The notes below the pieces were generated by a model. The model made no database searches. It saw only the letters and a list, made by a program, of their open reading frames with translations, and was not told the DNA's origin. 64,000 nt of DNA from Sphaerolaimus hirsutus (Eukaryota; Nematoda; Chromadorea; Monhysterida; Sphaerolaimidae): assembly GCA_964036195.1 (NCBI GenBank), contig OZ038458.1:5332001-5396000 (forward strand), in the 5' to 3' direction. Both the position numbers and the translations under genes were made by a program. Shown in pieces: positions 1 through 61,814 of this stretch; the stretch's first letter is position 1, and each line of letters begins with the position of its first letter.

Positions 1-3000
1 GCCATCATCCAATGACAATTTCCCACTATCAAAATCAAGCTGATTAACAGCGAAAAGGCACAAAAAGATTATTAAGGCCACCAGTGCAATGAATCCCGTA
101 ATTATAGCGTTTATGTAGAATATTGGCGATTGGCCAACTGTCGGTAAAAATGCAAATGGGGTACAAATCAAACAGGACATTGACCAGGCTGATTTTATCT
201 GAAAAGTGGAAGACTATTACACTAGATCATCTGAAAAACTCAGTTTTTAACACAGCAAAAAGGAATTTCAATATTTGTGTCAAAAATTTGCAGCGTTTGC
301 AGTAAGGTGCCCTAGCTCAAGTTGAAAATTCTATGTAACTGTTTGAACTGCGCGGCGAAAATTTTGAGACATTTGGCCAACACAAATTGTAATTAAAAAT
401 TGAAGACAGTTTCAAAGGGAATACATACAAAAAATTATTCCTCTAAAAATGTATTCTTTTTATGGTAGGCATTGTAAATACCAACCTTGCAAAACTGAGA
501 GACTTGAACAAAAACAGAAATGTGAACAACGACAAACCTGCCAATCACATTTAGCCAACTGACTATCCCAAATTGGCCAAAGCGACAAAATCGCCAAAAT
601 GGCGCTCAGAACCCATCGATGTTGAAACGTGAGCGCGAGTACAAACGGCGCACAAATGGCCAAAAGCGACCTTTGCAGTAATGATGCGTCTTTTAGAGTT
701 TCCGCGAGATGGTGTTTGGCTTCGGGCCAACTGATGCTGAGGTTTGTCTGAAAAATTTACATTGCATCAAATATTGTAAAAACAGTATTGTAAAACATGT
801 TGCAAAAATGGACAAACTCACAGGCCATTTTTCGGGGGCAAATACTTTCATGGCAGCACCAAACAAAAGCATTGGCGAGACACAATACACGTAGTCGAGC
901 CAGTCGGACCTAAAAACGAATTATACAGTTTGAATAAAACTACTTTTCAATATCGATGTTTTATCTGAACCACAATATTCGATATCGATATCCAATAGGG
1001 AAAAAATGGTCGACATTTGATATTTGTTCAAATTTTTCACATTTTTCAAATTGCTGTATCGAAACTCGGTATGAAAAAAAGAGTCGATATTCGATACGAC
1101 ATGTCTTTACCAATATCCACTCAACCACCGAAAAATCCCCCACCAGAAAAACCCCCTGCAAACAAACCCCATAATTCCGAGCACGCCGACAGCCAATCCA
1201 ATAAAAACCGACCCAAATTTAGTCGGTTTAAACAACGCGCCAGCCAAATGCCTGAATCTTTTCGGTCGCACGGCCACTGCGCACAGCAAAATGGACCAGG
1301 AAATGAATGTGGCAGCTATGCAAGTCGTTTGGAAGTGACGATTGTAGCTGCGAGGTGTGGAAGAACTCGGGAAATCAAATGCGATCACTTGACGCCGCAC
1401 ACACTAGTTTACTGCCAGCTAGTGTGGGCGGTAACATTCGGAAGATTACAAAATGTCTGCCTAGCACCAGGAGGAAGAAGTCCAGTACCTGTCAAATGTC
1501 ATGTAAAATATCAAACAAAATAAAAAAGAAAATATTTTGCTTGCTGAACTTTGCATGACAATTGACACTTTACATCAGTCAAGACAATTGGCTCTCTGCT
1601 TGGCATTTGTCATGATACTTGACAATTTTGTTTACACTTTACAGGGTCTGGGATTGGCACCAGGGATATCTTGAATTTTGACCCTCCAGAGGGTTGGATG
1701 GATAGCAAATCGCGCCTCCGGTAAGATAGATAGCTGAAAACAAAAATTTTTTGTGGGGGGAGTTACCCCCATGCCATTACCCCCGTCTCGCACACCCCGC
1801 CCATCCAATTAAAATTGCAGCGCAAAAAAAACCGACCGATGGAAATAATCAGTTCCATTGTGTAAAATGGGTACCGCTTGCAATGCCACTCTGGTGCCGG
1901 CTTCGAAACGACGCTGCGATTTCAGTCCTTCTAAGTCGCGATCGATAGCCGACAATCTGGGAAACGCAGAAATTCAGATTAATTTTATGTTTCACTAATG
2001 TGAATAGCACTATGTAATAGTACACGAAAATTGGGCCTCAGAATTTTTTTAGAGTCGAGAAAAGACACTTTACATGCTTGTCGGCCATCTCGGTAACAAA
2101 AAAAAACACACAACAAAAATTCACCCACCTGTCCCCCTCAGCCAGTGGCTCAAAATCTCTAAAAATCACACTAAAAGTTCTTTTTCTCCAAATCTCTCTA
2201 ACAGCTTCATATTGTTGTCTAGCCAATCTATAATTCGCAACAGCTGCGTGGAATTTATATCGGACACTGGTGGCGCCCATGTAAGATGTTGGCAGGGTGC
2301 CAAATGAATTTGTAGGGAGAGTTGTGCCGAGAAGGGCAGACATAAGTATGGCTAGATCCACCTATAGGGCGGGGGTAAAATTGAGATAGATTGACATTGA
2401 GATTGAGATGTGATGTTGCATATATTTACCGCAAACACTGGTTTACTAACAAAAGTAAACTAAAATTGGGTGCCCATAAATCAGCTTTGAAAGTATTTCA
2501 GTTTACCAGAGTGAATCATTTAAAATCTTCACAGACACGTCATTCTGGTAACCTCAAATGCGTTCAAAGCCAATTTATGCGTACACCAAAATTCAAGTTT
2601 AGTGTGTGCAACGCTATAGCAGAATGCAGTCATATTGCAAATTGTCACTATTGGTGTGATTTTGTGCATTTCACCAGTTTGAACTGATAAGATAAGGTCG
2701 AACAGCTGCTCACCCCAGGGACGTATCCAGGATTTTCGAGCGGGGGGGGGCTGCTTGTTTACGGAGGCCGGCGAGGGGGGGGCTCAGCCCCCCCCCCTCA
2801 AATTTTAGCTACATAGTGGCGGAATGGCGCCATGGCGCTGGCGCCATTTGTAGGCGCCACGCCATGGCGCCATTGGCGTTGGCGTCAGCGCCATGGAATG
2901 CTGTATATGTATGTAAATATACATACAAAACAGCAAAAAAACACAACATTGAGTGTATTTATAATGATTTGTGGCCACATGGAGCAAATCTGATGATAAT

Positions 3001-5865
3001 ACCTTATTTCTGGTGAAGAATGCGCGCTTGCGCGCAAAATTTTTTACGCTGACGTTGAAAAAGTCGCATTTTCCGGTCACTTTTTGGTCTCGTCCCGGGA
3101 GGGGGGGGGGCTGCAGCCCCCCCCGCCCCCCCCCCCCCTGGATACGGCCCTGGCTCACCCCACCAACTTGCAACAAGTCGCTCCTACTCTCTTCATTGAG
3201 CCACCAGCCTTGCTTATCAAAGTTTATTTTCCGCTCTATTGGCACGCTGCCAACATTTCCATTCGAAACACCAGCACCCCAAGCGACCACGGGCGTAAAT
3301 GTTTCGTGTTCAGTACCAGCGCCATGTGAACCCCAATCGGTCATTCCGTGATCCGCAGTGAAAACGAATAGGGTTGATGGTGAGGCTGCGTTCGGACAAT
3401 ATGGCGCCAATTTTTGGGGGAATTGAACTTGTGAACTTAAAAAGATAGGAACCAACATTCCGTTTCATTGTAGAAATTTCTTACTGCATTCACAACCATT
3501 TCCACACCCTTATCCACATTCTGAATGCACTTCAAATATTCTTCAGAGTGAGGCTTGTATCCATGGCCGGCCGTGTCCAAACCTAACAAATGTAGAAAGA
3601 GAACCAGTTTGTCATTTTGCAGCGCCAAAGTGTCATTTTGTCCATGTGCAGGGGTGGAGTTTGTGGATAAGAAAGCCTGGAGAAATGGGTGATGATGAAA
3701 TCGATATACCACACCTTTTTGCAATGAAAAGGACCGGCGCTACACTCAAAAGCTCGTCACAAAAAAGTTAATAACGACACAAATTCGTGCCTAGTAACCA
3801 AGCTCTGAAAGGCTCAAGCTTCGTCCAGTAAAGATATCAATTGTCTGATAGGACTCGAACTATCGGAAGTAATCGCCGTGAATTTGAATTTAAGTCGATG
3901 TTTCTGGGGGCACTTCCGCACCTTGTAAGTTGTAAACTGTCAAATGTCATGTAAGGTATCAATTAAAATTAAAATGAAAAGATTTCATCATTGAACCATT
4001 GACATTTTATCATTGAACTACTGAACACTTTCCATTACACTTTGCAAGTTGCAGGACTGCCACCTGGTGGGGGAAGTGCCATAGCCCACATCCGTAGCCA
4101 GAAATAATCAAAAACCAAAAATTCGAAAAGAGAACTAACAAGCACCCTACTAAACACCCATTCATCCAATTTGTATGGCTCCGCGCCAAAAAAGTCCTCC
4201 ATTTGGGCACCATATGAAAAGGTGCGCAATTTCCCGTCTGAAATTCCGCGGGAAAATAGTGGAACGATATCTGGACTGCCCCATGCGAATGCAGCTGATG
4301 ATCTGAGTATTTTGGTGTGAGAATTGTTTGTCAACTGAAAATACTCAATGTGCAAAGTGGCAGAGAAGTCATTGAGATGTCTTTTGAAGAGATTCGAGCT
4401 CAATAGAAATTTCAACCCTAACAAATATTTTATCGTGTAACAAACCCCCCTCCCCCTCACCCCGATTTCCATGTCAGCGACCACTGGCGTGCCTATATGC
4501 CAGAACAACCCACCCCTCCCCCGATTTATGTTCTTTCCTCATATCACTGCCATACGGTATACGGTAATAATTTTAAATCGACGACGTCATGTTGCCTCAG
4601 CAACTTATGGCGTCGTCAATATGTGAATGACAAACACGTACACCACGTGTACAACTGTCAGTCCGTGTGAAAAAGAAAAAAATCCCTGCCGACGAGGACT
4701 GAATTTTGTATGGGCTGCCAGTGCAGTCGTCAACTAAAACTCTATAGCTCAACGCATTCCCGCTAAACCTAACACCACCCAAAAAATTAAAACAAAAAAA
4801 ACTGAAAAACCCATCCCCAAGCACCTATTTATGACATGGTCGAATTCCACAGGATTCACACTCCAGCCCTTGGCGACTGCGCTAACATCTTCGCGCATTC
4901 CAGCGAGCAGGGCAACGTGTCCCGGGGGCACTCCCAGACCCTGTAAAATGCCCTGTAGAATGTCAAATGTCATGCAAAGTGTCAAAAGTGATGTGAAATG
5001 CCCTGTAAAATGGCAAACGTACTTTGGTAAATTTGGACTCTTTACAATGCATTTTACATGACTTTTAACACTTTGCATGATATTTGACAATTTGCAGGGC
5101 ATTTCACATTTTCTGGAAATGGCACCGGGCCGCGACTCTGTGGGCACGTGAGTGTGTGAAATGCCCCACGCGCTTTTGGAGGGCGCAGAAATTAGGGCGC
5201 TGTGAGGGGGAGTATGGTTATAATGATTTTTTTTCGATTGAGGTGTGCAATTTTTAGTTGTTCGATATAAAAAAAGCTTTATAATCAATGCGAAATCAAA
5301 TAATTGCGGTGTCGAGATTTGATCTTCTAAAAAGAAATTTTTGGTGGATTCAGTGTACACTGGAAGGTTTCTTTCCGTGTTCAATTCTTGAAGTACCATT
5401 TCCGCACCTGCGGAACCAAAATACTCAATGTACCATAAAACAACGCTTGTCTTCAAAGCGAATATGGTTAATTTTTGATTTATTCGAAACAATCGGACGT
5501 GGCAAGGCGCCAAACTCATAACAAACCGAAAATACTTCGCTCTGGACGCTAGATTGTCATAAAACGCATGCGCCCTCAATCCGTCAGCTACGAAAAGCAC
5601 CAAACGCTTCGCAGGCGCCGGCTTTACACCAACCTGAGAAAGACAAAATTTGGCATGCTGCCAAAGTCACAGAAAATCAAACAATCATTCAAAAACTGGC
5701 CTGTGTTCCTTCTAGGCCATGGATAACGGGTGATCTGTAATAAACATCGAAAATTGCGCCCAGTAGGAAGAGATGCAACGGCACAGCTATCAGCCATAGC
5801 TGAACACTGCTGCTTTTGGATAAGGATTTGGCATGGCGCCATGAAGCGTTCATTTGCGGCCACAT
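1..5865 (-). CDS. PIGN: GPI ethanolamine phosphate transferase 1 (PIG-N), partial at 3' end, 13 exons
   Basis: PIG-N adds ethanolamine phosphate to the first mannose of the GPI anchor in the ER membrane. Exons in transcript order: 5701-5865, 5527-5633, 5126-5199, 4825-4921 (or 4930), 4146-4302, 3457-3676, 3168-3385, 2129-2361, 1837-1956, 1168-1347, 822-909, 549-747 and 1-137. They give about 665 codons; the human protein has about 930 residues, so roughly the last 270 lie off the left edge. Visible motifs: an N-terminal membrane segment followed by [12 protein letters not shown], then FVADGLRA (about residue 70), [22 protein letters not shown], and [16 protein letters not shown] (about residue 283). 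These are the metal-binding blocks of the alkaline-phosphatase superfamily. Hydrophobic spans begin near residue 466. The start could be 5865 (chosen, upstream) or the in-frame ATG at 5853. Oddities: intron 1 has a GC donor, and intron 3 is a transposon copy with a non-AG end. Exon 12's donor (GTGATT at 548) was chosen by phase and is the least certain junction. Confidence 0.92.
1468..1661 (-). mobile_element. Diverged copy of the introner-like family inside PIGN intron 9
   Basis: Its left end on the gene strand reads GGTGCCAATCCCAGACCCTGT and the interior has TCAAATGTCATGTAAAATAT. The other end is eroded (GGTACTGGACTTCTTCCTCC). It lies inside the intron between exons 9 (1837) and 10 (1347), not at the splice sites. 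It may be an independent insertion or a decayed original intron later extended at both sides. Confidence 0.65.
2710..3152. repeat. Mobile-element copy, TATCCAGGATTTT...CTGGATACGGCCCTG family (copy 1)
   Basis: The copy starts GGGACGTATCCAGGATTTTCGAGCGGGG and ends CCCCCCCTGGATACGGCCCTG, inside PIGN intron 7 (2362-3167). It carries G-runs, a GCGCC hairpin (2818-2895), and a segment from CAGCAAAAAAACACAACATT onward that is nearly identical in the copy at 54018-55020. The two copies differ by a 0.55-kb insertion in the second. No protein was recognised. Confidence 0.75.
3905..4070 (-). mobile_element. Diverged introner-like copy inside PIGN intron 5
   Basis: On the gene strand it runs from CCAGGTGGCAGTCCTGC to GGAAGTGCCCCCAG, with GTCAAATGTCATGTAAGG inside. 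The intron itself is 3677-4145, so the copy is internal. The AG at 3905-3906 is a usable acceptor in principle, but the coding match resumes only at 3676 after TTTCTCCAG. Confidence 0.65.
4922..5125 (-). mobile_element. Introner-like element forming PIGN intron 3 (boundary unusual)
   Basis: On the gene strand the interval runs from GTGCCATTTCCAGAAAATG to CTGGGAGTGCCCCCGG, the ends shared with the introns at 56397 and 60720. It separates GAG TCG CGG CCC G from GA CAC GTT GCC, splitting the conserved ESRPGHVAL motif of PIG-N. Removing exactly this interval restores the motif but gives a GT-GG intron. Using the nearest AG (4931-4932) instead adds three residues (V-P-P) in frame before the glycine. 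The interior has family modules of the type GTCAAATGTCATGCAAAGTGTC. The element call is firm; the actual splice site is unresolved. Confidence 0.8.
5634..5700 (-). other. 67-bp GC-AG intron in PIGN
   Basis: Exon 1 ends ...GGA ACA CAG and exon 2 opens GTT GGT GTA AAG after TTTCTCAG. The only phase-0 donor that avoids the stop at 5690 is GCCAGT, so this is a GC-AG intron. The joined protein aligns across the junction with PIG-N (HG...then...[11 protein letters not shown]). The reading is inferred from phase; no transcript evidence is available. Confidence 0.7.
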
Positions 5866-13639: not shown

Positions 13640-13846
13640 GGGTTACTCCAGACCCTGTAAAATTCCCTGTGAAATGTGAAATGACATGTAAAATGCCAAA
13701 CGTGACATAAAATGCCCTGTAAATTGTAAAATTTTGCTTTTCACTGGTCGCTTGACATTTCACAGGGCATTTTACACGACTTTTGACACTTTGCATCACA
13801 TTTGACATTTCACTGGACATTTTACAATGTCTGGGAGTGGCCCCTG
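13640..13846. mobile_element. Intergenic copy of the introner-like family
   Basis: Left end GGTTACTCCAGACCCTGTAAA; right end TTTTACAATGTCTGGGAGTGGCC, with GTGAAATGACATGTAAAATGCC modules inside. It is far from any coding exon, showing that the family also inserts outside genes. Confidence 0.8.
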
Positions 13847-15594: not shown

Positions 15595-17656
15595 CAATCA
15601 GGAAAAATTGGGTCGGGCAGCGCACCGGGTTTTGTCAAGCAGCAAAAACATACACATCCAATACAATCGTCGGGCAGCCCGAAAAAACATGTCGGGCAAA
15701 TTCAATGTCCTCCCCATCCTTACACGGATTTCACCCTCCCACCGGTATATATTTACGTCAGATCAGATGGGCCAAATTGTCGCCGCAACGGCGGCGCGGC
15801 GCCCGAAAACACAGTTCCACCTTGCGTCGCCGCCGCGACGCGACAAAAACCATGTGAAACGTGAAATTTTTATCACCGTGCCGCCGCGGCGCGTTCGGTC
15901 GCATGCGCGCCAGCGGATTTCACTTGTGCCCACTGGTGGTGGGAAGAAATCGGTGAAGAGTGGTGAAGAGGGATTTTTGGGGAATGACGTGTTTCTTCAC
16001 CGCATTACGTTGACTGATAATAGACTGACAACTGACAACGTAGTCGGGTGGAAACGTTGACATTTTACGTAGTGATGACTTTGCGTTTGACTCAGATTTG
16101 TTTATTCCAGCGAATGGATTGTATTTCAATATAGGTAAGCCCGAGTAGTAGAAATTTGTCAAGTAGATTTCAGGATATAAAATGTGCCCATCGGGGATTT
16201 TACATTCCATGACATTTGGTAAATTTCTCAGATGTCTGGTAAATCTATCAGATGTAGACAGGACTGGCCCTGAAACCAAAATACTTAATAAATACAAATG
16301 GTGCATAAAATTTGACAATCAATTTACCTATGCAACTTATCAACTACAAACCCAAAAACATCACCGCCACTCAATTAACTCCCCACCTCTTTTCCCATCA
16401 CTATCAGCACTCCGAAATATTGCATTCGGGCATACAGTTGACTGGTTACCCGCGCAGTGGGTCCATCTATTTGGGATTTCGAATGCACGGATGTCTGGGT
16501 TTAGTCGGTCGAAATTTTTTTATATTTTTGAATTTTAGATTGCGAGATTTGATAGGAATGATGTGAAATGTTGGATTGTTTTGTGTGCGCGTCTGTTTGT
16601 ATGGATTTTTGTTCAGTTTTGGATTAGGTTTTGAGTTGTGTTTGATCATTTTTTGATTGCATCACTCCGAATGTTTCTGTACTGTGGTTACAGGGTGTAA
16701 TTTTGCGCCCTGCGCGCTATGTACCTAGTGATAACTTTGAGGTGCCACCCAGTAAATTGGCAAATGTCATGGAATGTGTCAAGATCTGTTTCTGAATTTT
16801 GACATTTTTCATGGCATTTGACAAATTTCTATGACATTTGACACTTCTGCTCCCGCAAAAAAAGTTTCGAAATTCATCTAGAATGTTTACACAGTGGCTG
16901 AAATTTTAGTTGTCACTTGAACTGGCATCGGATGCTGTTTACAGTTCATCCGACACTTATCTGTCACTTATCAGACTGTCCATAACTTGGTAGTTTGTGT
17001 GGTTGGTAGGATAGTGTATAAAACAGGATAGTGTATACATTCCTTCTTCCCTTGAAGTTATAACTTTGTGAATTTTCTTTTACACATGAAATGTAAATAC
17101 CGTAGGTATACACAGATTTTCGACACACCTCGCTGACTCATCAATTTTCTATAAAAACAATAAGCAGGTAAACAAAAGTGTACTCACCCAACCCCGATGG
17201 CGCAATTCAATTGGCGACAGCAAAATCGAATGCCATCAATATCACCCGATCGATGCGCAGGTGGCTCCGCGACCGTTCTTATATTTGGCTTTTGCACCCA
17301 TCATTTCACCGCGCGGCAGATTTTGCTATCGCAATCACCAGTGCACACGCAAATATCCATGGATATGATCCATCTGTCGCAGCGTAGGCGCCCACGAAAT
17401 CCAAAAACACAACATTGGAGAAGGGCGATTTCGGATTTCTGCCCCTCGGTTTTGAGGGATTTGCGGTTTGCGGCGGCGCGGCGGCGCGACGACATTCATT
17501 TCGAATGTGCCGCGCGGCAGTCACGCGCCGCCGCCGCGCAGCTGCGGCGGCAGTTCGTGCTTACGCGCGGTGATAGGGACTGCCGGGTGGTCCTTTGCGA
17601 CGTGTGGAGGAAATGTTTTTAGGATAGGGAGATTTGGGAGGATGCAGGCAAGCGCC

Positions 17657-18155
17657 GTTCCCAGACCCTGTAAAATGTCATGTGTCATGTAGAATCCCCT
17701 GAAAATGTCATGTGTCATGTAAAAGACCCTGCAAAGTACCATGTGCATCCAAACCTTATTTTATCATATCCAAATCTTATGTTTATATATCTAAATTATA
17801 TGTCAAAAACTAAGATTTGGGTACAAAAAAATATAATATTTGGATACAGTAAAATAACATTTGGATACACATGACACATTGCAGGGTCTTTTACATGATA
17901 TTTGACACTTTACAATGTCTTTTACATGGCACATGACATTTTACAGGGTCTTTTACATGACATTTGACACTTTACAGAGTCTTTTACATGACACATGACA
18001 TTTTACTTGGGGTGGCACAATGTCAAATGTCGTGTAAAGTGGCACTGCCACGTAAAATCCCAAAAGTCATGTAAAATGCCATTTACCTAAAACGTTTTTT
18101 TTACATGACTTTTGACACTTTGTCTAACATTTTATGTTTTACAGAGTCTGAGAGG
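17657..18155. mobile_element. Long, internally expanded introner-like copy upstream of Hr3
   Basis: Left end GTTCCCAGACCCTGTAAAATG; right end TTTTACAGAGTCTGAGAGGG. The interior repeats TGTCATGTAAAA and TTTACATGACATTTGACA modules many times and includes an AT-rich stretch (17760-17870). It illustrates how the family grows by module amplification. Confidence 0.75.
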
Positions 18156-19345
18156 GTAAAGTCTCCATATTGGAACGTGGCAGCCTGCCAAAATTTTGAA
18201 ATCGTTATCCATATATAAAAAACGGCTAAAAATTGCTTAGAAAATGATATAACCGAAGGCGAATTGAATTGAATCTTTACACATGCCAAACTTGTGGAAA
18301 GTTGATTTTTGCATGAAATATCTCAGGGCACTTTCCATGGTGCGGAATTCACCCTAGAGTCAGGAAATGGCAAAAGTTCAGAAACAAGCACTCGACAATG
18401 CAAGTGTCCCACACCACCGTGTACCCTTACAAACAGCCCAGGTGATTGTTGCGCCAGCGCGCATGTGCACGTGCATGTGCGCGTTACGGGCGCAATATCC
18501 CCATAACATCCCACTCGGATGCCGGTCGGGTTGTTGTGATGCACATGCGCGCCCGGCGCCCCGAATGTAGGTCGCGGCCGCCGCGCTGCCAGCGCCGCTG
18601 CGCCGGGCGGCGGGTCGACGTTCCCGCGACTTTTTGCCGCCTTGTGCTAGTGCACGTTGATTGATAAGTAGTGATAGGATGATTTTGGCTCGGTAGTGGC
18701 CACGTGCCGCCGGGCCAGGTACGCGGCGCAACTGCCAAGGCGTCGGTGCACAGTGCGCTCGGAGATGGGCACCTAGCTCGGCAGCGAGTCGCCCGGCACT
18801 GTCTTGAACTATGCGCTTTGTTTTGAGATTGGTGCAAGACCTGCGGCCTTGGATAAGTGTTCACGGCGGTTCAATAGGTACTTTGAGGCACATCCACACG
18901 CATATTACACCTGGAGAACTCGTTCATCTGGCATGTAAATAAGTTTGCGGGAGGTGGTGCGTCCAATGTCCAATGCCAGGCGGTTATCGATTGATCGCCT
19001 CGCAACACTCTGGGTTTGTTGTTGGCCGACGAGCGATTGTTTACGTCACACCGAGTGCAAATCAAACATTTTAAGTCCATGCATAACTACTTCCTTCCTC
19101 GGACCAATCTACGCAAATTTATGACTGGGTGGGGTATTATTTTCGAGCAGCGTGCGTGCCCGCTGACCGCCGCGAAATCTTACATGTTTTTACCTATCCA
19201 TCATCTACCTCCTTGCGCCTAAATCCTCTAAACCAAATTTGGCAACCTTCCAAAATCACCCTGATCAACCTCTTCTCAACCTCCAGGGGGGCGCGCAGCC
19301 CTAAAAGTTCTACCCTACCCCTACATTGTGTCTAATAGCTGCGGC

Positions 19346-31400: not shown

Positions 31401-34400
31401 ATTCAGGTGAAAAACGTGACCACGGGAAATGGGTGTCCTACAAATTGAATACATGCTTGATAATTGCTTATCACAATTTTTTGTATTTCAAAAGTTCTGA
31501 ATTGTAGTCTATTGATATGAACTATTAGCGAGGCGGAAGGACCTTATACTGTGGGTAAAATTGTACTGTAGTAAGTTTTCTGAGTGAAAACTTCCCATCT
31601 TTTGTGACGAATATTACACAATAGAAATGGACAGTACATTTGTATTTACAAATGAAAATGAAATTGGTTTGCAACTTTTTGTGTGAAATTTGATTGACCC
31701 GACGCGAACTATCGGGCAGCCCGACTTTTTCTATTGCCCATATTTGTATTTTTACGCTGCTGTCAGAAACAACATTTTTAGCTGGTGTTACTTCCAGACT
31801 ATGTCTAACGCCCTGTAAAATGTAAAATGTCATGAAAAGTGTCAAAAGTCATGTAAAATGTAATGAAATTTTTTTAAAATTTCTGTACTGCTCGTTTGCA
31901 ATTTTCCATTACATTTTCATTATTTTTGACCATTTGCATTACATTTTACAGGGTCTGGGCGTGGCCTCTGGGAAAATTTGTCGCAGACACATGCGATATC
32001 ATATTTTTCGGACTCCAATAATTAATCATCCAACAATTTTACATGAGAGCCATGCTATCAGTTCTATCGCCAATCTGACAAGCACGTAAAATTGATAACG
32101 TCCCTTATAACTGAAAAAAATACCTTCAAAAAATATACAACCAGGTGTGAGTAGCCATAGATGCTCACACCTAAACCGAGTGGACATTGGTCACTCAAAA
32201 GAAAAAAATCCCCATTCAAACAAATAAAAGCACGCCCCCCACTGGCATTCATTCGAAACGAACCGTCATTATCGCATCCCACTCTCAATGCTAAAAAAAA
32301 ATCGATGCCCCACAGTTTTGCATAAAAATGCACAATACCTGAATAAATAATCCCAGGAGTTTGCCAGGGGAAAATCGGCAGATGGGAGTAAAGGTAAAAT
32401 GTGCCCAGTGCCCGCGCGAATGTCTTGCACAATGTTAAACGCGCATCTGCGCTACCGTAATCTGGGGAATATGGGGACGAGGGGGAAAATAAACCAGGTG
32501 CTACTCTCAGTAAAATACCTGTAAAAAGCCCTGTAAAATGTCAAATGTCATGCAACGTGGCCAAAGTCATGGAAAATGCCCTGTAAAATGGCAACCGAGT
32601 TGCCATTTTGCAGGGCATGTTCCATGACTTTTGCCACGTTGCATGACATTTGACATTTTACAGGGCTTTTTACAGGGTCTGGGAGTGCCCCCGCCCAACA
32701 TTTGGGGTCGATTTGGGCGGCCCGATTCATTATATAGGAAATTACGCGCTGACAAGTCCAAGTGTTTGTTTCAGCTTGCACTCAGCTCCATAACAACCCT
32801 TATTCAAACTTCTCCCTTATCAAAACAACCTCCCACAGCGGTCGCTACATTCAGCCGAATTACGGTAGCGTATACCGGGGCGGGGTTGCGTCATGCGCGC
32901 GCAGCATCCGGGCAAAACGGTACTGCCCCAATTTAGAACTGCGCCGCGCGCCCCCGCGCACAGGTAAGGCGGCGCGGCGGCGGGGAAGTTTGAGGGGTTT
33001 TTTTTGGGGGGGGGGGGGGTGTTGTGTTTTTGAAATCTATGGGAGTTGGTGGATTTGGGAGGTTTTGAGTGGGAGAAATGGAATTGATTTGGTTGGTGGA
33101 CATGTGTTGTTGTGAAAGTGCTTTTTGTTTACCTTTGGTATATCTTTAAATATTAGAAAAGTAACCTATTTGAATACCACACAGTTGTGAGTTTCTCTTT
33201 TTTTTATGATGGCATATTTATATGCTGGCCAGCACAAATTCACATCTCAGCACATTATCTCATCAATTCTAGCTATCTTCCACCTTCTCTACCTCACATT
33301 AAACCATCTAATTAATTATCAACCCAGAACCTACATCCACTTAAGCCTAATTAATCTCAAAATTCAAATTTTACCTCAAAAAGTCGAAGTGTAACTTTTC
33401 CCGCCGCTGCAACAACAACAGACAGTGATGTGATTTAGGGTCGGGGGCCAAGTACAGGGTTGCGTGTGCGTCTGTTTTTACGCGCGCCATCTTCACGTAC
33501 CATGTTCATTTGCGCGCAGATTTGGCGAATGTTTTTTGGAGTTTGTTGTTGACGCCATTTTTGGGAAAAACTGAGAGAATGTTTTTTGATTGAGTGTAGA
33601 GATATGATACAGAGATGCTTATGAGTATAGGTAGCTCATGCTTATGGTAGTCAGTATAAAAGAGAAGGCTGTTTTCACAATGTATACATGTGATATGATT
33701 TCAACTGATGGTTATTATAATGCAAATAATGTGCATTTTTAATAATATCATAGTGTTTGACTTGACAAAATAACATTGACAGCCAGCACACTAGTTGACA
33801 CTTGTCAGTCAACTGGTCTGTATCAACTCAGATTTCGGCTTCACGTGTTGCGTAGCGATCTCGAAATGCACATGCAGCATGACAAATATAATGGCAAGTG
33901 CATTGGAAGATCGCTACATGACACGTGAAGCTGAAATTTGAATACCTAGACACAGACCAGTTGACACCCAAGTGTCAACTATGTGCTGGCTGTCTTTAAT
34001 TGCCAAGTTTGTCAGTTCATATGAATGGACATGAAAAGGAAACTCAATTCCTCAAAATTGGAAATTCCTTAACCCCCCCCCCAACCTACCAAGTCCACAC
34101 CCCCCCCCCCATAAATAGTTGCCCCTAGTTAAAATATGTATTCGCGTACCTAAATACTCACTTACGAATGTACACATCGCGCGATTGTCAAGGTACTGGC
34201 GGCGAGGAACAATCACAATGTGCAGATGTGATGGGATATTGCTCTGCCGCGGCGGCGGCGCGTGTGTGGCCCCATTGTGTTGCGCAAAACGGTAGTGCCC
34301 CGGCGCCGTTTGACTGTTTGGGTGGATGGTTTGGGCACCCCCCCCCCACACCCGAGTCTTTGCCGATCTAATGAGTGCACGTGGATTTGGATTGTGTAAT

Positions 34401-40400: not shown

Positions 40401-43400
40401 TTGAGGGGGTAACACCCCCCCCCCCCCCTCCGGCTCCAACCACCGCCAGACTGAACCCCTGATTTAGACTGCAAGAAAGAATTAGGAGCAAAGCACAAAA
40501 GGGGATTTACCGCGATTTTAACACCTCCGCTTTTATTCAATGTATGCATCTATTTATATAATGTCTACCCTAATATTAATCAATATTTATTCAGTGGCCT
40601 CAAAATTGATCAACTGCAGTGTCGATTTCACCGTATTATAACAATTTTTTATTATCATGGTTGGCGCTTTTTTGGCGCCATTTAAAATGCCGGCGCCAGG
40701 CGCCAATAGCGTCACCAGAAAATGGCGCCAAGCGCCAAAAGCGCCATGGCGCTTTCTCAGACCCCAGCGCCAAGCGCCAATGGCGCCAGAGCGTATTAGC
40801 GCCAAGCGCCAAAAGCGCCATGGCGCTTTTTGTTTTGGCGCTAGCGCCAGGCGCCAGCGCCATGGCGCTTTTCCATCACTATACGAGACTTCTTTACAGT
40901 TTATAGTTACCGTATTTCCTCGAAATACCCCCAGGGGGCGTTAATCAAAGGAGGGGGTATTTCAAGGGTTGGTGCATTTCGAGAAAATACGGTAAATACC
41001 TGATTACACAGCCATGGCTGGTTCACATTTACCTATTCCTTGTCCCGCGCGCAATTTTTGCAGTCTCATCATATCTTCTCAATGTACATTTCCCATCACT
41101 ATTATTCTTTTCTTTAATTTTTTTAGCAATTAAAATTGGGGACGCCAATTCGGATTTCGAATTGATATTCCTGAAAGAGTCGCTTCAATCACATTTTTCG
41201 AATGACGGTCGTCAAAAATTCAAATGTGATGGTTTTCGGAGTACGATATCTTTACAGATATAAATTTGACAACTAGACACTAGAAAATCTTGATGATTAA
41301 AATCTCACCGACACACACTAGTTGACATCGAAATTCGTGTCAACTAGACTCGACTAAATTTGGGTTAATTATGTGATTTCAAATTTCAATTGTGATAGAG
41401 CATAGTTAATTTAAAATAGGTATTTATATCGTGACACTTTATTCTCATTTGTTTCTGTAAGTGTGATGTTTTTAAAATTGTTTTTGTTTTATCCAGTTGA
41501 CATTCACTGACACGGATTTGGGAAAATGTCAACTAGAGTATGGGGGTCCATAAACTCAATATTTCCCCCAAACCCCTTCAACCTCAAACAACCCCCCACA
41601 GCTCAAATCGAAGTGATCCCGTGCAAGGTGTGCGGCGACAAAAGTTCCGGCGTGCACTACGGCGTGATCACCTGCGAAGGCTGCAAGGGCTTTTTTCGCC
41701 GGTCGCAATCTTCGGTCACCAATTATCAGTGCCCCAGACAGAGAAATTGCATCGTGGATAGGGTGAACAGAAATCGATGCCAGTATTGCAGATTGAAGAA
41801 ATGCTTGGAATTGGGCATGAGTAGAGATGGTAGAGTCGGGGGGTTTTGGCGATGTTTTTTTTTAGTTTGGATCGGAAATAGTGATATATAGTGATGGAAT
41901 GGCGCCGTGGCGCTGGCACCCTTGAATGGCGCCATCTGGCGCCTGGCGCCATTTTTCCTGGCGCTTTTCCATCACTAGGTAGTCATATCAAAATTTGCAA
42001 AGTTATACACAAATAGTTATAACGACATTTGTGAAATATGTAAAATATCTAAAATTGTAATATATTTATAGAAATATATTCACATGATATTTTGATGATA
42101 GTAACAATTTTATCAGTTTGCTTTTGGTTTTTGTAATTTTCAGTTTTCAATAATCGCAGCATTTGCAGGGTTGACCCATTTTGGATGACAACACCAGTGG
42201 AGAATTGTGGTAATAATTAGACAACCACTATGCTAGCAGTGTTAAGATTGCACTAAATTTCGCGTATTTGTAATTGTAAAATTCCCAGAATTTGAACAAA
42301 AATAAAAAAAATTTTGCAACCAAAACATTATAAATATTTATCCAATATTGTATTCACATAGGTCTCATTCCACAAAAAAACATCCTCAAAGGCACTTTCA
42401 TTACGGCAAAACTTTTCACACACACTTAATCACAACCAAACCTAACTTCCCCCTACCTTGCTCGCACACGCTCACTCACTTCCACGCGCAGCGGTGAAGT
42501 TCGGACGCATGTCCAAGAAACAGCGCGAGAAGGTCGAGGACGAGGTCCGACTGCACAAGCACATGGGCGACACTGGCGGCGGAATGCAGCCCATGGTCGT
42601 GCGGCAGTTTGCCAGCAATAATGGGCAGTATAATGGAGCCTATGTGCCCCCTAGGTTGGTCCTGGTGGGGTATTGTTTGTGTGCGTGCAATATTGCTGCT
42701 GAGTTGCACCCTATTTGCAAGGCGCTGTAGGTAGGGTGACATGATTAGAGTATGAGAGAATAAGTCAATTTGCTGACCGTCTACTTATTTATCGGCTATT
42801 TGAAACGACAAAATCTCTTTTAGACAGAGCCTCTTATCATTCGACAGGGTTAAAGTTTTTACTTCTCACTACTAAAATGTTTTTTAATCCTCCACTTGTG
42901 GAATTGACCCCTGGAACGCACCCATGCTCCGACTTTAACAAAACTCCCAAATACATAAGTACCTGGCACAAGTCCCCAAGTCCAAGGATACAAATAGGTA
43001 CATCGTCACAAAAACAATTTCACAAAAACGAAACAAAAACAATGTTTCCAAATAAATATTTGTAAAAGGTTTTTTTTCTCCCAAACTGTCCCTGAAACCT
43101 GGCACCGGGCCAATATTCCTCACAAACACTCCCCCCCTCACAGCTACCCCTACATGTGCAACGGGTCCAACTTGGTCACATCGACATCCCTGAACGCGTC
43201 CTACGCCAGCAGCAGCGGGGGGCCCAGTCCCTCATCGAGCGACCCCTATCTATCAGCGGGGGTGCCCACGACCAGCGCGCACCCCCATCACGACCACGCG
43301 CAGTTGCACGAGCCGCAAACGCACGCAGTTGGCACCGTGCCAGCGCAGTACAACGGCACCGGCGATATAGACGCTTTGACGCCTCACACAGTAATGGGGG

Positions 43401-50583: not shown

Positions 50584-52477
50584 GAATGAAACTTGATGGC
50601 TATTTGTCACTTTGTAGCACTTTTTTCTGTCGTTGCAAAATGTCGTAGCATTGAATGGGAGATGTGTCATTACAAGTGCAGCTTATTTTGGTGAGCAAAG
50701 GACAGCCAAGCTGATTTTGCAACGACAGGGAAGTAACGGAATGGACAAATAGCGAGGGAAATGCAGGTGCATATAAATATCCAAGGGATGCATAAAAATC
50801 ATTGTATTTATAAAAACTATCATAAAAACATGAAAAAATATAAACGCATCTGCATTCCCTCACTACAAATAATGATTCGCTTAAGTTCACCATAATTTGA
50901 ATGTCAAAATTTCTACTCTGCAGTTACAGATGTGTGGAGTTTTGAACATTCAAATAATATTATATTTTTAATTAGTTGGTAGCATTTGTCTATCTTGTAG
51001 ATCTTGTCTATAGAAACGTCTCTGTCATGTAAAATTTTCACTTTTTTATTTGTTTGAGTAGACCAAAAGTTCCACATGAAGCGTGTATTTAAAAATGTAG
51101 TAGGGATGGATGCATTATGAGCTAAACTTCAAACATTCTACACTATTCCCTTTAATTTTCACTTATATTTATTATCTCTTGTTTTATTTGCATAATTACA
51201 AGGTAGGTAGGTATATTGTACACATACATAATTAGGCTGTCTTGAGTACTAAAACAGTAATTTTACGTGTTTTTTCTCTCTTCATTTTACTCCACACTGC
51301 CTAAGTGCTTTCACACTGCCAAAATGATCCATTAAAGATGCTACTATTCCTGCCGCCTCAAAATTTATTAATAATTCCTTTATTACTTTTATTTTAACTT
51401 ATTTACCTGAGATCTTCCAATCAGTCTTTCACAATATTTTTATATATAGCTTGCAATCACCTGTGGCAATATTTTCTATCATGTTATGCAATATTCAGTT
51501 ATGTTTATGACTCGACTTATTTAAAAGTTGCTTTTTGTGTGAAAACATGTATTTATTTATGTAGGTAGGTTAAGATGATCTGTACCCAGGGGTGAAATTC
51601 GATTGCCCGACATATTTTTGTGCGGTCACATTTTGCGATGTGCAAAATTTTCAAAGGCAAAGGTTTTGCAGTTCCTTTTACTGGCATTCCCACTGCATCG
51701 GGTAATGTATCGGATATAATTAAACGGACTGCCCAAAAATGTGTCGATAAAATTCAATTTCATCCCAATATTATTTATTTAGTATTAAATCATTTCATTT
51801 TCTGTCTCTAACAAAAATTCCCTGTGATTTGCGAGTTCTTTTACTATGAACAATAAATATGATTCATCAAACAGTAAACTCCAACGAGTTGGAATATTTA
51901 TATATTTTTCCACACTGGAATGATAAAGAGCAATTTTGACATAATGTACCACGCTGGCAGGCACAAAGAATTTGCAACCAAAAAAAGAAAAGAAAAACGA
52001 TGTAAAATGTGTGATAGAATGTGCCTACGCATACTAGTTTCCAACCAAAATTATTTTTTTGAGAACTCACACACAAGCTTTGAACATATTCGAGTCGACT
52101 GGAATGAGTAATTTTAAAGCTACGCCAACAGCAGTTGACGGACACCTTATTCCGGTAAACTCAAATGAATTCAACGCTGATTATGATTTTCCAGTTTTGT
52201 AAAAATTTCGGGAGAAAACTAATGTGTTTGGGTAACTTGAAAAAGCACAAAAACCGGGAAGATGTAAAGCTGCCATTCGGAAGGTGTCACCGCTGTACCA
52301 CGGGGACAGGTGCCACTTCCAGAACCTGTGAAAATGTCAATGCCATGCAAAGTGTCAAAAGTCATGGAGAATACCCTGCAAAATGGCAACTGGTTGCTAT
52401 TTTCCATAACTTTTGACATTTTGCATGACATTTGACATTTTACAGGGTCTGGGAGTGGCACGGGGGCGTTATCAAGC
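50584..52477. other. Convergent 3' flanks of Hr3 and DCTN5
   Basis: No gene seen. AT-rich, with a candidate Hr3 poly(A) signal (AATAAA, 51852), a CATACTAGTTTCCAACC fold-back at 52018-52228, and the introner-like copy at 52310-52461 next to the DCTN5 stop. The ORF at 51620-51811 has no recognisable product. Confidence 0.55.
52310..52461 (-). mobile_element. Introner-like copy 17 bp after the DCTN5 stop codon
   Basis: On the gene strand it starts GTGCCACTCCCAGACCCTGTAAAATG and ends CAGGTTCTGGAAGTGGCAC, about 152 bp, the cleanest symmetric copy. The terminal AG of the coding-region copies is absent (GGCACCTGTC follows), so it may be retained in the 3' UTR. Confidence 0.85.
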
Positions 52478-55400
52478 TCAAGACGACGGCACAAACTTTC
52501 TATAGTAGCTTTCAGTGGCGTCTTTCATAAGCTCCATAGTGCAAAATGGTCCCTGACCGACGATCTGACCTGAGAAAAACGCGCATTTACTAGAAACGTG
52601 TCTCGTGTGGCAAATAATCCCCGTGTGACCGGTCCACAATTATCGGTTTTACGGAAATTACATCAATTATAAAATCAATGGTCGAATCCATTTAGTCACA
52701 AATCGATATTGCATTGGGACTTTCAGGATCAGGATCAGGGTTAGGCTTTTCAAATTTCAGACATAGCATGATCCAGAAAATTATCGGGATCCAGTTTGAA
52801 CCCTATCCGAACGAAAAAAAACCCACATTTTTACGCCCCCGGCGAAATTTGCTATGAGATAAAGATTTTCAAATGACGCAAAATGATTCGAGAATTCGCC
52901 CACCATCAAAAAATCTATTCATCACAATAACACAAACCACGCGCTGAAATTTTCCGCCACAAATCTACAAAAAATTTGGCGCCATGCCAACCACCTACCA
53001 GGATTGCCTGAAACCAATGCGAACGGCGGCAGGACAGTGTCCGCTGGAACGACTGTATCCGGCATTATCGTAACGCAATCTTTGACAACCACGCGAGGGC
53101 CCAAAACGCACCGATCGCCTGTTTTTTTTGTTGACATTTAGTCCTTTTTGTTGTCTAGGTGGAGATTTTGGATGGCAAAAAAAGTTGGCGATCTACCTAA
53201 ATACATTCTACAAACAGAATTTTGGTGGATGAAAGTTACTTAAGAGCTCCCTTGAGCCCACTCGAGCGATATGAAAGTGTTTTCCAACATGCCTTCAAAA
53301 TCGACATAAAAGACTATCTGAAACCTACATAATTGTCTACCAGAAATACGTTTTCTGTACTCGCGTACATTCAAAAAGTATACGTAAAAGCAAATAAAGG
53401 AACTTTTTGCGGAGGAAACGTAAACGTATTTACTCTGTACTTGAGTATACGTATTTACCGTATTGGCTTGTTTTGAGTGCCATGCTTGATTTGAGTGCCA
53501 TGCTTGAATACAGTACCAGGGTAACTGCCTTATGAAACAATACAGTGCCATTCTTGAATTGAGTACCCCCCACACGAGAGTATAGCGATTTTTAACCTTC
53601 CCGATTGGTAAGCTCTCGATGGGTAAGCCAAAGTATGTCGATGGGTAAGCCAAAGTGTATCGATAATAAAGCCACACATGGCTTAAAAAAGTGTCTCGAT
53701 TTTTAACCCCTGGTATGTCGATAATAAAGCCAATACATAAATACGTATGGAGCAGACGTAATGAGATGCCGCGGCAAGATATTAAAGTGGTGTTGATGCA
53801 CTGCACCAGCACCTTCAGCACAATGTTGCAATGAGCTAGATCAGTGACTGTATGACATTGGTTTGCTTTTTCCACTGCATTTTACATGACTTTTGGCACT
53901 TTGCATGACATTTGGTATTTTACACCACATTTTTACAGTACTATTCAATGCAAAACATACTTTTTGATCAATATATTTATCTGCAAACTTCACTACAATA
54001 AATATATACATTACATTACACAGGGACGTGTCCAGGATTTTTGAGCGGGGGGGGGGGGCTGCTTCTTTACAGAGGCCGGCGAGGGGGGGGGGCTCAGCCC
54101 CCCCCTAAAATTTTTAGCTACAGGGTTGCGGAATGGCGCCATGGCGCTGGCGCCATAAGTAGGTGCAACGCCATGGCGCCATTGTCGTTGGCGCTAGCGC
54201 CATGGAACGCTGTATATGTATGTAAATATACAGGGATGGGCATCTTCAGTTACCGCTGGAAAAACGCGATAGCTTGAGCTACAGTTGAGCTATCACAATG
54301 AAATTTTAACACAATAGAGTAGACTCCATAGGACACCTATGCTGAAGTTTGCAACCCAAACGGCCACAGTTTGGAGGAGTTGTGGAACACACAGTTTTTA
54401 GTGTAATTTTGTGACTTCACCCCCCTTATCTCGGGACTGGGGGACTATTCGAGTAAAAAAAGAATTTGGTAGTAGGCGCGACCACAACATACTCAAAGGG
54501 CATCAAAATCGGCCGATGTACAACAGAATGGGACGACACCAACGACCGATGCCCCCCCCTCAAATGCCACCCTCGATTTATCCTATGGGTGACGCCAAGT
54601 CACAAAATTACACTAAAAACCGTGTGTTCCACAACTCACCCAAAATGTGGCCGTTTGGGTTGCAAACTTCAGAATAGGTGTCCTATGGAGTCTACTCCAT
54701 TGTGTTAAAATTTCATTATGATAGCTCAACCGTAGCTCAATCTATCGCATTTTCCCAGCGGTAACTGAAGATGCCCACCCCTGTACATACAAAACAGCAA
54801 AAAAGCACAACATTGAGTGTATTTATAACGATTTGTGGCCACATGGAGCAAATCGGATGATAATATGTTATGTTTGGAGAAGAATGCGCGCTTGCGCGCA
54901 AAATTTTTTAAGCTGACGTTGAAAAAGTCACATTTTCCGGTCACTTTCTGGTCTCGCCGCGGGAAGGGGGGGGGGCTGCAGCCCCCCCCCGCCCCCCCCC
55001 CTGGATACGGCCCTGACATTACACTTTTACATTATATTTGTGTATAAATACTTTACATTTATACTCGGCAGACATCACACTTAGTATGAAAACCTACAAT
55101 AACCCATCTGAATAATGAACCAAAAATTATAGTTTTTTTCACCATAATATTGCATTTTTACGATGGAATTATTAATTGCAAAATTTATCACAAGATTTTA
55201 TTCATTTAATTATGGTAGGTTTCCATACTAAGTGTGCAGTCTGCTGAGTATACATAGTATTTATTGGCGCCGCTTATTTTCACCTAGCAGTTTGCACATT
55301 TGATAAAGGTGCCCAGACATAATTGCCTCATGTTCATACCTCAGTAATTCATTGGTGTATTTAATGTTTTGTACACACCAGTAATTCATTGATGTATAAG

Positions 55401-57823
55401 TATGTACGTACGCGGCTTACCAATCGAGACAGTCGGGTTAAAAACCGATATACTTTGGCTTACCAATCGAATGAAAAATAAAATTTGCATGCGGCTTACC
55501 AATCGAGATACATTGGCTTACCCATCGACATACTTTGGCTTACCAATCGAGAGCTTACCAATCGGGAAGGTTAAAAATCGGGATTCCCTCCCCCCCACAC
55601 CTAAGTAATAGAAGCAAACATGACGCGGGAAACGCAGTACGTTTAAAAACGTTACTGCGTGCGAGTGGTTTCTGTTCTGTCGCTTCTGTTGTTAAAAAAT
55701 GTCCAGTCGTTGTTGTATCTAATTGACGCAGCTGTTGCAATTACATCATAATTATGCAGCTGGAATCGATATACATACCAAACTATGTATATCGATGTCT
55801 ATAATGGAATTGAAATGCCTTACCAAATAATACAGTACCATGCTCGAATTGAGTGCCATGTTTGAATTGAGTGCCACTGTAAGGACGTTGTGAAAAAATA
55901 CAGTGCCCGGGGTTAAAAACAAGCCAATACGGTATCTAGTAAAAGTAAATACGTTTTAACAACTATGGATGCAAGGTCGTGGTGCCACTTTAGTAACGAT
56001 GACAAACCTTCTGGAAAAAAGTGTTTTTAGTGGGGGTTTTCAAGCCGAATTTTCAGATATTCTGAAAAAAGTTTTCGAATTTTCGATTTTTTTTGCACCG
56101 AATTATTACATTTTCATATTGTCCTAATGAATTCCAGAATGAATAATTATCAATAATTCATTAATAACGTTTTTAACTGAAATTTTATTATTTAATCGGC
56201 ACGAAAATATTGGACATCCTACTCAAGACCGAGCGTTTATCATTATCACTAATATCGATCACACAATTTTCAAGCACCCCCCAAAAAGACCCCCCTCACC
56301 AATAAACACCGCGTCTCCCACATTAGCGCACTGCAACACCGAATCCTGGCCGATCCACACATGGGCACCAATGTGCAGCGGCAGAAAAGCCCAGCCCTGG
56401 GGGCAGTCCCACACCGTGTAAAATGTCAAATGTCATGCAAAGTGTCAAAAGTCATGTAAAATGCCCTGCAAAATGGCAACTCGGTTGCCACTTATAATGA
56501 TATCCCATGATTCTACAGCCATTCTATGGCTATATTTAACATCACAAAGTACTGCCACTTCTCTGACATACCTATAAATATATGTAAGACTCATGCCGAT
56601 AACTCGGTTGCCATTTTGCAGGGCATTTTACATGACCTTCGACACGTTGCATGATATTAGACATTTTGCAGGGCATTTTCCATGACTTTTGACACTTTGC
56701 ATGACACTTGCCATTTGACACGGTCTGGAACTGGCACCTGCGCGGTGCGTCGGGCCGCCGGGCGCAGGGCTGCCCTTTCATGTACAACGCAGTGGGCGCC
56801 TAGGCGAATGCGACCTAGGTCGCCGCGTAGGATTACCCCAGAGTGGACTATCACCTGGGGTTGTGAAAGGGGTTTTGTGGATTTGGAGAACTGCGGGGGT
56901 TCGGATGGATGGTAAATAAATCGCTAGGGATGGATACCAAATGAAAAAAGATCATTATGACTCAATAGGATGAACAAATGGAAGCTTTTACACTAAAAAT
57001 GCCTTAAAACCAATGATAACAACCACCAATGGTAATGGGTATGTGCAATTGCGCGCTAGTGTGTAGCCTAAATTTTTTGGCCAAGGATTTAAAAAAACGG
57101 TTTCAATGGTCAGTTTTTTTAAAAGATAAAACGTTTTAAAAAAATAAAAACCGTTTGGAAAAACCTCCCGGTCATCAGTAATGGCACTGCACAATTACGC
57201 ATGTAAACCCATCCCGCATGTTGATCCGGAACACATTTAATCATACCCGGCATGCTGAAATTGGGCTATAAAACACCTGACCTAGTGATTTTGAAGGTGA
57301 AAAGCTATAAGAAGTATGAAAATTAGCGATTTTAGGTGAAAATTACAGTAAAATTGCTCAAGATAGCTAGAAATTTGCGGGGGGGGGGGGGTGTTCAGGG
57401 GAAAGTAGCCAGAAAAAATTGCCCCAGGGATAGATAGATAGCTGGGCGGTTTGGGGTGGAGTTCACCGTCCCCCTTTATTACCCCTGCGAGTATAATGTG
57501 CCTATAATGGGTCTAGATGCGTGATGGGTTTAGATGCGGAATAGGCTTGACCCATCAGTAATAAGCCAAAAGTAGCTGAAATGGGTTCGTTTTTAAGGTT
57601 TAAATTGGGAAAAACGTATGAGCGAAAATACGGGCGAATCCCAAACTTCGTCCACTAGTACAATCACGACAAGAAACAAACACACCAAAAACAATACAAA
57701 AATAACCTTTCCATTTAGAACGATCTGCTGCGACCCGTTGAGCGATGTGAGCCGAGCGATTTTGTTTCCATTCGCAGTTTCAATGAAATCTTTCTTGTCA
57801 TAGGTGTCGCCTTGCATTTCCAT
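52478..57823 (-). CDS. DCTN5: Dynactin subunit 5 (p25), complete, 5 exons
   Basis: p25 is a left-handed beta-helix subunit of the dynactin pointed-end complex, which links dynein to cargo membranes. Exons in transcript order: 57707-57823, 56738-56854, 56300-56396, 52999-53118, 52478-52569; 543 coding bases including the stop, 180 aa (human 182). Exon 1 reads DFIETANGNKIARLTSLNGS then QQIVLNGK; exon 2 VILRGDLGRIRLGAHCVVHE; exon 3 GWAFLPLHIGAHVWIGQDSV; exon 4 DRCVLGPRVVVKDCVTIMPD and VLPPFALVSGNPG; exon 5 ELMKDATESYYRKFVPSS then stop. All follow the family alignment, including the hexapeptide-repeat spacing and the C-terminal SYY-KF. Intron 2 is exactly one copy of the introner-like family. Intron 3 (53119-56299) contains a multi-level transposon nest. 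The start is the first ATG of exon 1, matching family length. Confidence 0.95.
54018..55015. mobile_element. TATCCAGGATTTT...CTGGATACGGCCCTG family (copy 2) with internal insertion
   Basis: GGGACGTGTCCAGGATTTTTGAGC...CCCCCCTGGATACGGCCCTG. Same order as 2710-3152 except for an insertion at 54231-54784. Confidence 0.8.
54231..54784. mobile_element. CAGGGATGGGCATCTTCAG inverted-repeat element, TA target duplication
   Basis: Left CAGGGATGGGCATCTTCAGTTACCGC; right GCGGTAACTGAAGATGCCCACCCCTG. The empty site at 2920-2932 reads AAATATACATAC; here it reads AAATATA, element, TACATAC, so TA is duplicated. Arms of about 200 bp include GCTATCACAATGAAATTTTAACAC. No ORF of note. Confidence 0.88.
55058..55252. 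mobile_element. ATACTCGGCGGAC fold-back family (copy 2)
   Basis: TATACTCGGCAGACATCACACTTAGTATG...CATACTAAGTGTGCAGTCTGCTGAGTATA, ~90-bp arms. Confidence 0.8.
56397..56737 (-). mobile_element. Introner element constituting the whole of DCTN5 intron 2
   Basis: Gene-strand sequence begins GTGCCAGTTCCAGACCGTG directly after exon 2 (GCACCGCGCAG) and ends CACGGTGTGGGACTGCCCCCAG directly before exon 3 (GGCTGGGCTTTT). The 5' and 3' ends are reverse complements over about 20 bp and supply the GT and AG. Phase 0. Inside are paired modules (TTTGCAGGGCATTTTCCATG, TGCAAAGTGTCAAAAGTCAT) around a ~110-bp AT-rich centre. The CAG before the element and the CAG closing it look like a short target duplication. 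Confidence 0.92.

Positions 57824-58527: not shown

Positions 58528-61814
<3,287 letters not shown>

Follow-up and report, generated by a model that had tools for sequence, protein, structure and literature searches.

Among the documented sources of new introns, introners are a major one. Huff et al. 2016 reportedly described MITE-like elements becoming introns in Micromonas and Aureococcus, with hosts and termini other than those considered here. According to the available text of a 2022 survey (Gozashti et al. 2022, PMC9860276), the introners of Chrysochromulina sp. take their acceptor from the target duplication, as was found at the present locus, but their duplications are 4 bp long and terminal inverted repeats are not evident in them, whereas 3-bp CWG duplications and inverted repeats were observed here. 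The same portion of that survey describes introners in Symbiodinium microadriaticum which, as here, have terminal inverted repeats, target duplications and one splice site derived from the duplication; however, their duplication is 4 bp long, and the element carries the 3' site while the target gives the 5' site, which is the reverse of the present arrangement (PMC9860276). The introner elements of Amoebophrya, as far as the accessible part of that report goes (PMC7789003), also resemble the present case in having inverted repeats, a predicted hairpin joining the exon boundaries and direct repeats of 3-5 nt at the exon/intron borders, but their splice sites are mostly non-canonical and no inverted-repeat motif is family-specific, in contrast to the GT-AG sites and the single family seen here.

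Introners, including the type with an acceptor from the duplication, are already known from the 2022 survey, which in its available text reports that among animals and land plants they occur in two groups only, both of them animals (PMC9860276). It is possible that the family described here is one of that survey's 548. No introner with a CWG target was found in the literature searched, the scope of which lay outside supplements and most subscription journals. Duplications of the form 5'-CWG-3' characterize NuwaI, a group within the PHIS (Harbinger-like) transposons, for which the consulted part of the original description gives termini that are usually GGG, terminal inverted repeats of 12-61 bp and a distribution in animals only, with autonomous candidates of about 4.5 kb on average that contain two ORFs (Han et al. 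2015, PMC4482050). In its available text, the NuwaI paper does not seem to treat introns.

In the current study the window (the whole stretch of DNA analysed, 64 kb) was followed up from an earlier note, which had claimed that intron 2 of DCTN5 is a complete inverted-repeat transposon, i.e. an introner, with the donor inside one terminus and the acceptor in a short duplicated target. Both termini of the element agreed with that claim base for base (table 1). On the minus strand, exon 2 ended in CGACGCACCGCGCAG (56752-56738; also written ...CGCACCGCGCAG), the intron started with GTGCCAGTTCCAGACC at 56737 and ended with GTGGGACTGCCCCCAG at 56397, and exon 3 began with GGCTGGGCTTTTCTG at 56396. 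The upstream end of the element starts GTG and contains the donor GT, and the acceptor is the duplicated target ending in AG (CAG at 56399-56397). The inverted-repeat arms as called (56389-56475 and 56662-56748) were 87 nt long and 86% complementary, and extended 11 bases into the flanks.

The note had also described the DCTN5 coding sequence as uninterrupted across the intron, and this was borne out by a spliced piece of 111 residues, whose alignment with the PDB entry for dynactin subunit 5 (E 1.5e-31) continued ungapped across the junction (...RTAQ:GWAF..., the colon marking the boundary). Joins of exons 2 and 3 were enumerated for donors within 60 nt and acceptors within 90 nt of the anchors. 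Six in-frame GT-AG joins were obtained, all with acceptor 56397, and only donor 56737 added no residue. In the unspliced sequence, the 27th codon counted from the end of exon 2 is a stop, which lies within the element. Folded as RNA together with 15 flanking exon bases at either end, the intron formed a long hairpin (-174 kcal/mol, compared with a mean of -102 kcal/mol in 100 shuffles, z -13.2), as expected from the inverted repeats. A protein search with DCTN5 returned three relatives with 35-46% identity over 51-70% of the query, none of them close.

A second whole-element intron, absent from the earlier note, was found in ARP3 (...AACAACAG:GTGTCACT...GTGCCCCCAG:GTCACTT..., 60913-60720). The joined ARP3 protein matched 174 residues of solved Arp3 without a gap in both alignments inspected, the best at 317.7 bits. 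The first four solved chains listed covered 174 for 174 residues, and the fifth, 3dwl, covered 169, indicating a gap somewhere in the alignment to that chain. Five GT/GC-AG joins were possible for this intron, and only 60913/60720 yielded an ungapped protein; a rival AG inside the element terminus, at 60729, would add three residues. Without splicing, a stop follows at the 7th codon after the codon that is split by the exon end. The second case favours an introner family over one odd intron. The introner reading of DCTN5 intron 2 was supported in those parts that sequence alone can test.

Among 11 modelled introns of DCTN5 and ARP3, a two-ended copy of the family was present in only two, each of which it filled to the base. 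The other nine were picked by eye among the enumerated joins, and the set does not include the ARP3 intron that follows the second coding exon and precedes the third, for which 26 joins were possible. A search for Arp3 loci in the viral contigs collection gave 16 stretches and no relative. In the genome contigs collection 37 stretches were obtained, the sole match being one of 24 residues in a Bacteroidales bin (OMQK01000092.1, L014:83-154), which is possibly eukaryotic contamination.

Table 1. Coordinates of the DCTN5 and ARP3 features and of the element copies in the window (colons mark exon-intron boundaries).
Feature	Position	Strand	Remarks
DCTN5 exon 1	57707..57823	-	with start codon
DCTN5 exon 2	56738..56854	-	ending ...CGC ACC GCG CAG
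Upstream CAG duplication copy	56738..56740	-	last three bases of DCTN5 exon 2
DCTN5 intron 2	56397..56737	-	341 nt, phase 0; CAG:GTGCCAG...CTGCCCCCAG:GGC; E10 plus one CAG copy
Element E10	56400..56737	-	338 bp; terminal inverted repeats GTGCCAGTTCCAGACC / GGGGCAGTCCCACACC
Downstream CAG duplication copy	56397..56399	-	last three bases of DCTN5 intron 2, acceptor AG
DCTN5 exon 3	56300..56396	-	GWAFLPLHIGAHVWIGQ...
Family fragment	53868..53933	.	inside DCTN5 intron 3
ARP3 intron	60720..60913	-	194 nt; E9 (60723-60913) plus CAG; CAG:GTGTCACT...GTGCCCCCAG:GTC
E1	1471..1660	.	one end decayed; flanks CAG/CAG; no recognised gene
E2	3907..4063	-	CTG/CTG (+ strand) duplication; between two PIGN exons
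E3	4925..5125	-	within ORF taken as PIGN; flanks CCG/CGG
E4	13640..13843	.	GGG at both ends; CTG/CTG duplication; no recognised gene
E5, rearranged family copies	17650..18160	.	ends not definable
E6	31785..31967	.	CTG/CTG duplication; no recognised gene
E7	32498..32691	+	ends GTG / GGGG; flanks CAG/CGC, non-identical
E8	52310..52461	.	both ends GTGCCACT; flanks CAG/GGG, without matching duplication

Nine two-ended copies of the family (E1-E4 and E6-E10, 152-338 bp) were found in the window, together with rearranged copies and fragments. The terminus of DCTN5 intron 2 proved to be dispersed, as the earlier note had stated: allowing at most three mismatches, its pattern occurred six times in the window, compared with a mean of 0.33 and a maximum of 3 in 100 shuffles. 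Seven of the nine copies had GT at one end only, and in five of these (E2, E3, E7, E9 and E10) the opposite end was GGGG. GGG was thereby present in six of nine copies, at one end in the five just named, whose other end was GTG, and at both ends in E4. The element with its downstream trinucleotide read GT..AG only in E2, E9 and E10, and in one orientation only. The GT end lay upstream on the coding strand in all four one-GT-end copies within DCTN5, ARP3 and PIGN (E10, E9, E3 and E2), a bias that is not significant with four copies. When the element termini were scanned in the viral contigs and genome contigs collections, 13 stretches were obtained (10, 0 and 3 in the former, 0 in the latter), and none of the 13 matched the element (blastn, E up to 1). 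E8, both of whose ends are GTG, was located 16 nt beyond the stop codon of DCTN5 and thus in what is presumably the 3' UTR.

Several other repeats were noted in the window. The translations of 2722-2920 and 54034-54229 (+) contained the same peptides in the same order and at near-equal spacing, and constitute another dispersed repeat. DCTN5 intron 3 holds two 22-bp tandem arrays (53616-53674 and 55493-55552) with similar units on opposite strands, and a further tandem array (39951-40128) consists of GGCGCCAAGCGCC-like units with 74-bp and 16-bp periods. An ORF on the minus strand (26033-26791) gave a weak reverse-transcriptase match (RVT_1, 25.3 bits) under the Pfam cut-off.

Identical trinucleotides flanked six of the nine copies (E1, E2, E4, E6, E9 and E10), and all were CAG or CTG; the flanks of E3, E7 and E8 were non-identical. 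Among lengths of 3 to 5 and offsets of -8 to +8, three bases in register gave the highest match count. A four-base match was found in four of nine copies when the last base of the element was counted and in three of nine on the other side, indicating that the length of the duplication is not perfectly fixed. The chance figure for six identical pairs in nine (6e-9) is flattering, as the flanks were visible when the ends were set by eye; a stricter count is five of eight, because the decayed end of E1 was placed with its CAG flank in view. Four of the six copies with identical flanks (E1, E2, E4 and E6) lie outside the DCTN5 and ARP3 introns, indicating that CAG is a footprint of transposition and not only a splice consensus. 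As E1, E4 and E6 are in no recognised gene and E2 lies between PIGN exons, selection for splice sites can hardly account for the CWG pairs of these four copies. The 2022 survey, in its available part, warns that introner families flanked by AG only are ambiguous, and the CWG pairs of E1, E2, E4 and E6 bear on this ambiguity (PMC9860276).

The ORF that holds E3 is taken here to be PIGN, on the basis of known PIGN sequence and of a Pfam match. The joined pieces matched type I phosphodiesterase in Pfam (E 3.4e-10), with the best stretch further along the protein, and matched only a bacterial phosphodiesterase in the PDB, weakly (E 0.00088). E3 lies between ...TESRPG and HVALLAG of the putative frame, and its insertion (204 nt) keeps the frame, contains no stop and reads through. 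With flanks of CCG/CGG, clean removal of the element plus 3 nt would be GT..GG. One of 19 joins, the GT-AG join 5125/4931 with its AG inside the E3 terminus, would give RPVPPGHVA, with three extra residues. Judged from its sequence, E3 may be an in-frame insertion, an internally spliced copy or a polymorphism. As it interrupts a conserved exon and has no canonical acceptor for precise removal, a clean intron is not the invariable result of insertion, and E3 suggests that a clean outcome depends on the CAG target. With a CSG site that lacks AG, this copy offers a natural counter-example. For E2, stops were found downstream in all three frames, the upstream side was open in two of three, and 14 joins were possible around the element. 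E2 may lie within an intron, or it may itself provide a donor in one or more of these joins.

These data make it very probable that a MITE (a short non-autonomous DNA transposon) inserted at a CAG in a coding exon of DCTN5 and was an intron at once, an estimate that excludes the NuwaI classification considered below. The observations behind it are an intron that equals the element plus a CAG copy, the GTG at its upstream end, the ungapped DCTN5 protein, the recurrence in ARP3 and the CWG duplications elsewhere. An origin in one step is suggested by the anatomy, because the end of the element starts with GT and the duplicated CAG is a ready acceptor. A transposase acting in trans would cut a CWG site, and insertion at a CAG on the coding strand would duplicate the CAG. 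The first copy would then form the exon end, the GTG terminus of the element, itself presumably derived from GGG, would supply the donor GT, and the second CAG copy would supply the acceptor AG, with the C-rich opposite terminus (GTGCCCC:CAG) serving as pyrimidine tract. Splicing would remove the element and one CAG, leaving the mRNA unchanged. The two ends are usually unequal, one being GTG and the other GGG, so a GT-AG intron is to be expected only when GTG lies upstream and the coding strand carries CAG.

An introner family should provide introns coextensive with a dispersed element, should do so in several introns of different genes, and should leave the coding sequence intact after insertion and splicing. 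Coextensive introns were found in DCTN5 (E10) and ARP3 (E9), and these are the only two clear whole-element introns in the 64 kb; both derive from one family, which accounts for two of the 11 modelled introns of these genes; and the ungapped alignments indicate an intact coding sequence, splicing being assumed.

It could be argued that the element entered an intron that already existed at the same place and that the old intron sequence was lost later, given that copies of the family do occur amid ordinary intron sequence (E2 between PIGN exons, and the fragment in DCTN5 intron 3). The ends of the DCTN5 and ARP3 introns nevertheless consist, to the base, of the element end and the CAG duplication, with no remnant of an older intron on either side, in contrast to E2, downstream of which every frame contains stops. 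Such an exact loss on both sides would have had to happen twice, and we consider this course of events very unlikely. E3 shows that an exonic insertion of the family need not yield a clean GT-AG intron, so the insertions in DCTN5 and ARP3 might be unspliced, in which case these copies would be broken alleles or pseudogenes. Both genes are, however, otherwise open over conserved stretches, and E10 and E9 each supply GT and AG at the exact positions that restore the frame; as the two cases agree, unspliced insertion was judged highly improbable. The AG flanks could finally reflect a site preference or selection for splice-like sites rather than a target duplication, as with an introner that is not a transposon (e.g. 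one formed by reverse splicing). CAG:GT...CAG is an ordinary splice consensus too, and this is where the ambiguity of AG-only families applies (PMC9860276, available part). Such an origin has very little probability in view of the inverted termini and of the same CWG pairs at E1, E4 and E6, which are not introns of recognised genes, and at E2.

For the MITE favoured above, the CWG duplication together with the GGG terminus suggest a NuwaI-like element of the PHIS superfamily, and the NuwaI group is the likeliest assignment, with roughly an even chance of being correct. The CWG duplication (identical in six of nine copies and not in three), the GGG at one end and the animal host are as in NuwaI, whereas an end that is mostly GTG and the longer arms (87 nt as called) are not. 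The host is indicated to be an animal by a nuclear-receptor DNA-binding domain at 41511-41891 (+; Pfam zf-C4, E 4.7e-33; best PDB match ROR-gamma). Nuclear receptors are, to our knowledge, confined to animals, and of insect HR3 and vertebrate ROR this domain looks nearer to the former. No Pfam match to a DDE transposase or to Myb/SANT was found in 40 of the 47 window ORFs of at least 120 aa, a search that short or split pieces would escape. Nothing was found either when long frames, translated across their stops, were scanned with Pfam, and such scans are insensitive, as the phosphodiesterase of the joined PIGN piece was missed as well. An autonomous copy may lie elsewhere than in the window.

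The duplication of PIF/Harbinger elements proper is TWA. This group was rejected, as an AT-rich duplication is expected of it according to the available NuwaI text (PMC4482050) and CWG was seen instead. CACTA/EnSpm was rejected on the grounds that CACT lies inside the terminus and the duplication lies outside GTG/GGG. The terminus of CACTA/EnSpm elements starts with CACTA or CACTG beside a 3-bp duplication. It is still quite possible that the introner belongs, instead of to NuwaI, to some other superfamily whose duplications are 3 bp long, CACTA/EnSpm for instance, which would alter the classification only: a CACT motif occurs 4 bases inside the terminus, GTG rather than GGG mostly starts one of the ends, and no transposase was seen in the window. 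If CACT is set as the edge, however, conserved letters fall outside the element and no flanking 3-mer is shared in E9, the copy examined, while CWG is the published signature of NuwaI in the part of that paper available (PMC4482050).

If the NuwaI-like assignment is followed, it can be tentatively proposed, though we think it somewhat doubtful, that a transposon with a CWG target was preadapted for making introns. Its obligatory target, where it reads CAG on the coding strand, would serve both as an ideal exon end and as a complete acceptor, a substitution of T for G at the second base of one end (GGG to GTG) would have sufficed for the element to start making introns, and the unchanged GGG end would give the C-rich acceptor side. 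The transposase's own choice of target would then explain why the element inserts as a ready intron, and the occurrence of CAG or CTG on the coding strand, together with the two orientations of the element, should split the copies into introns and non-introns. If this preadaptation is true, there would be an animal genome with a burst of such introns, in a single orientation and all at CAG.
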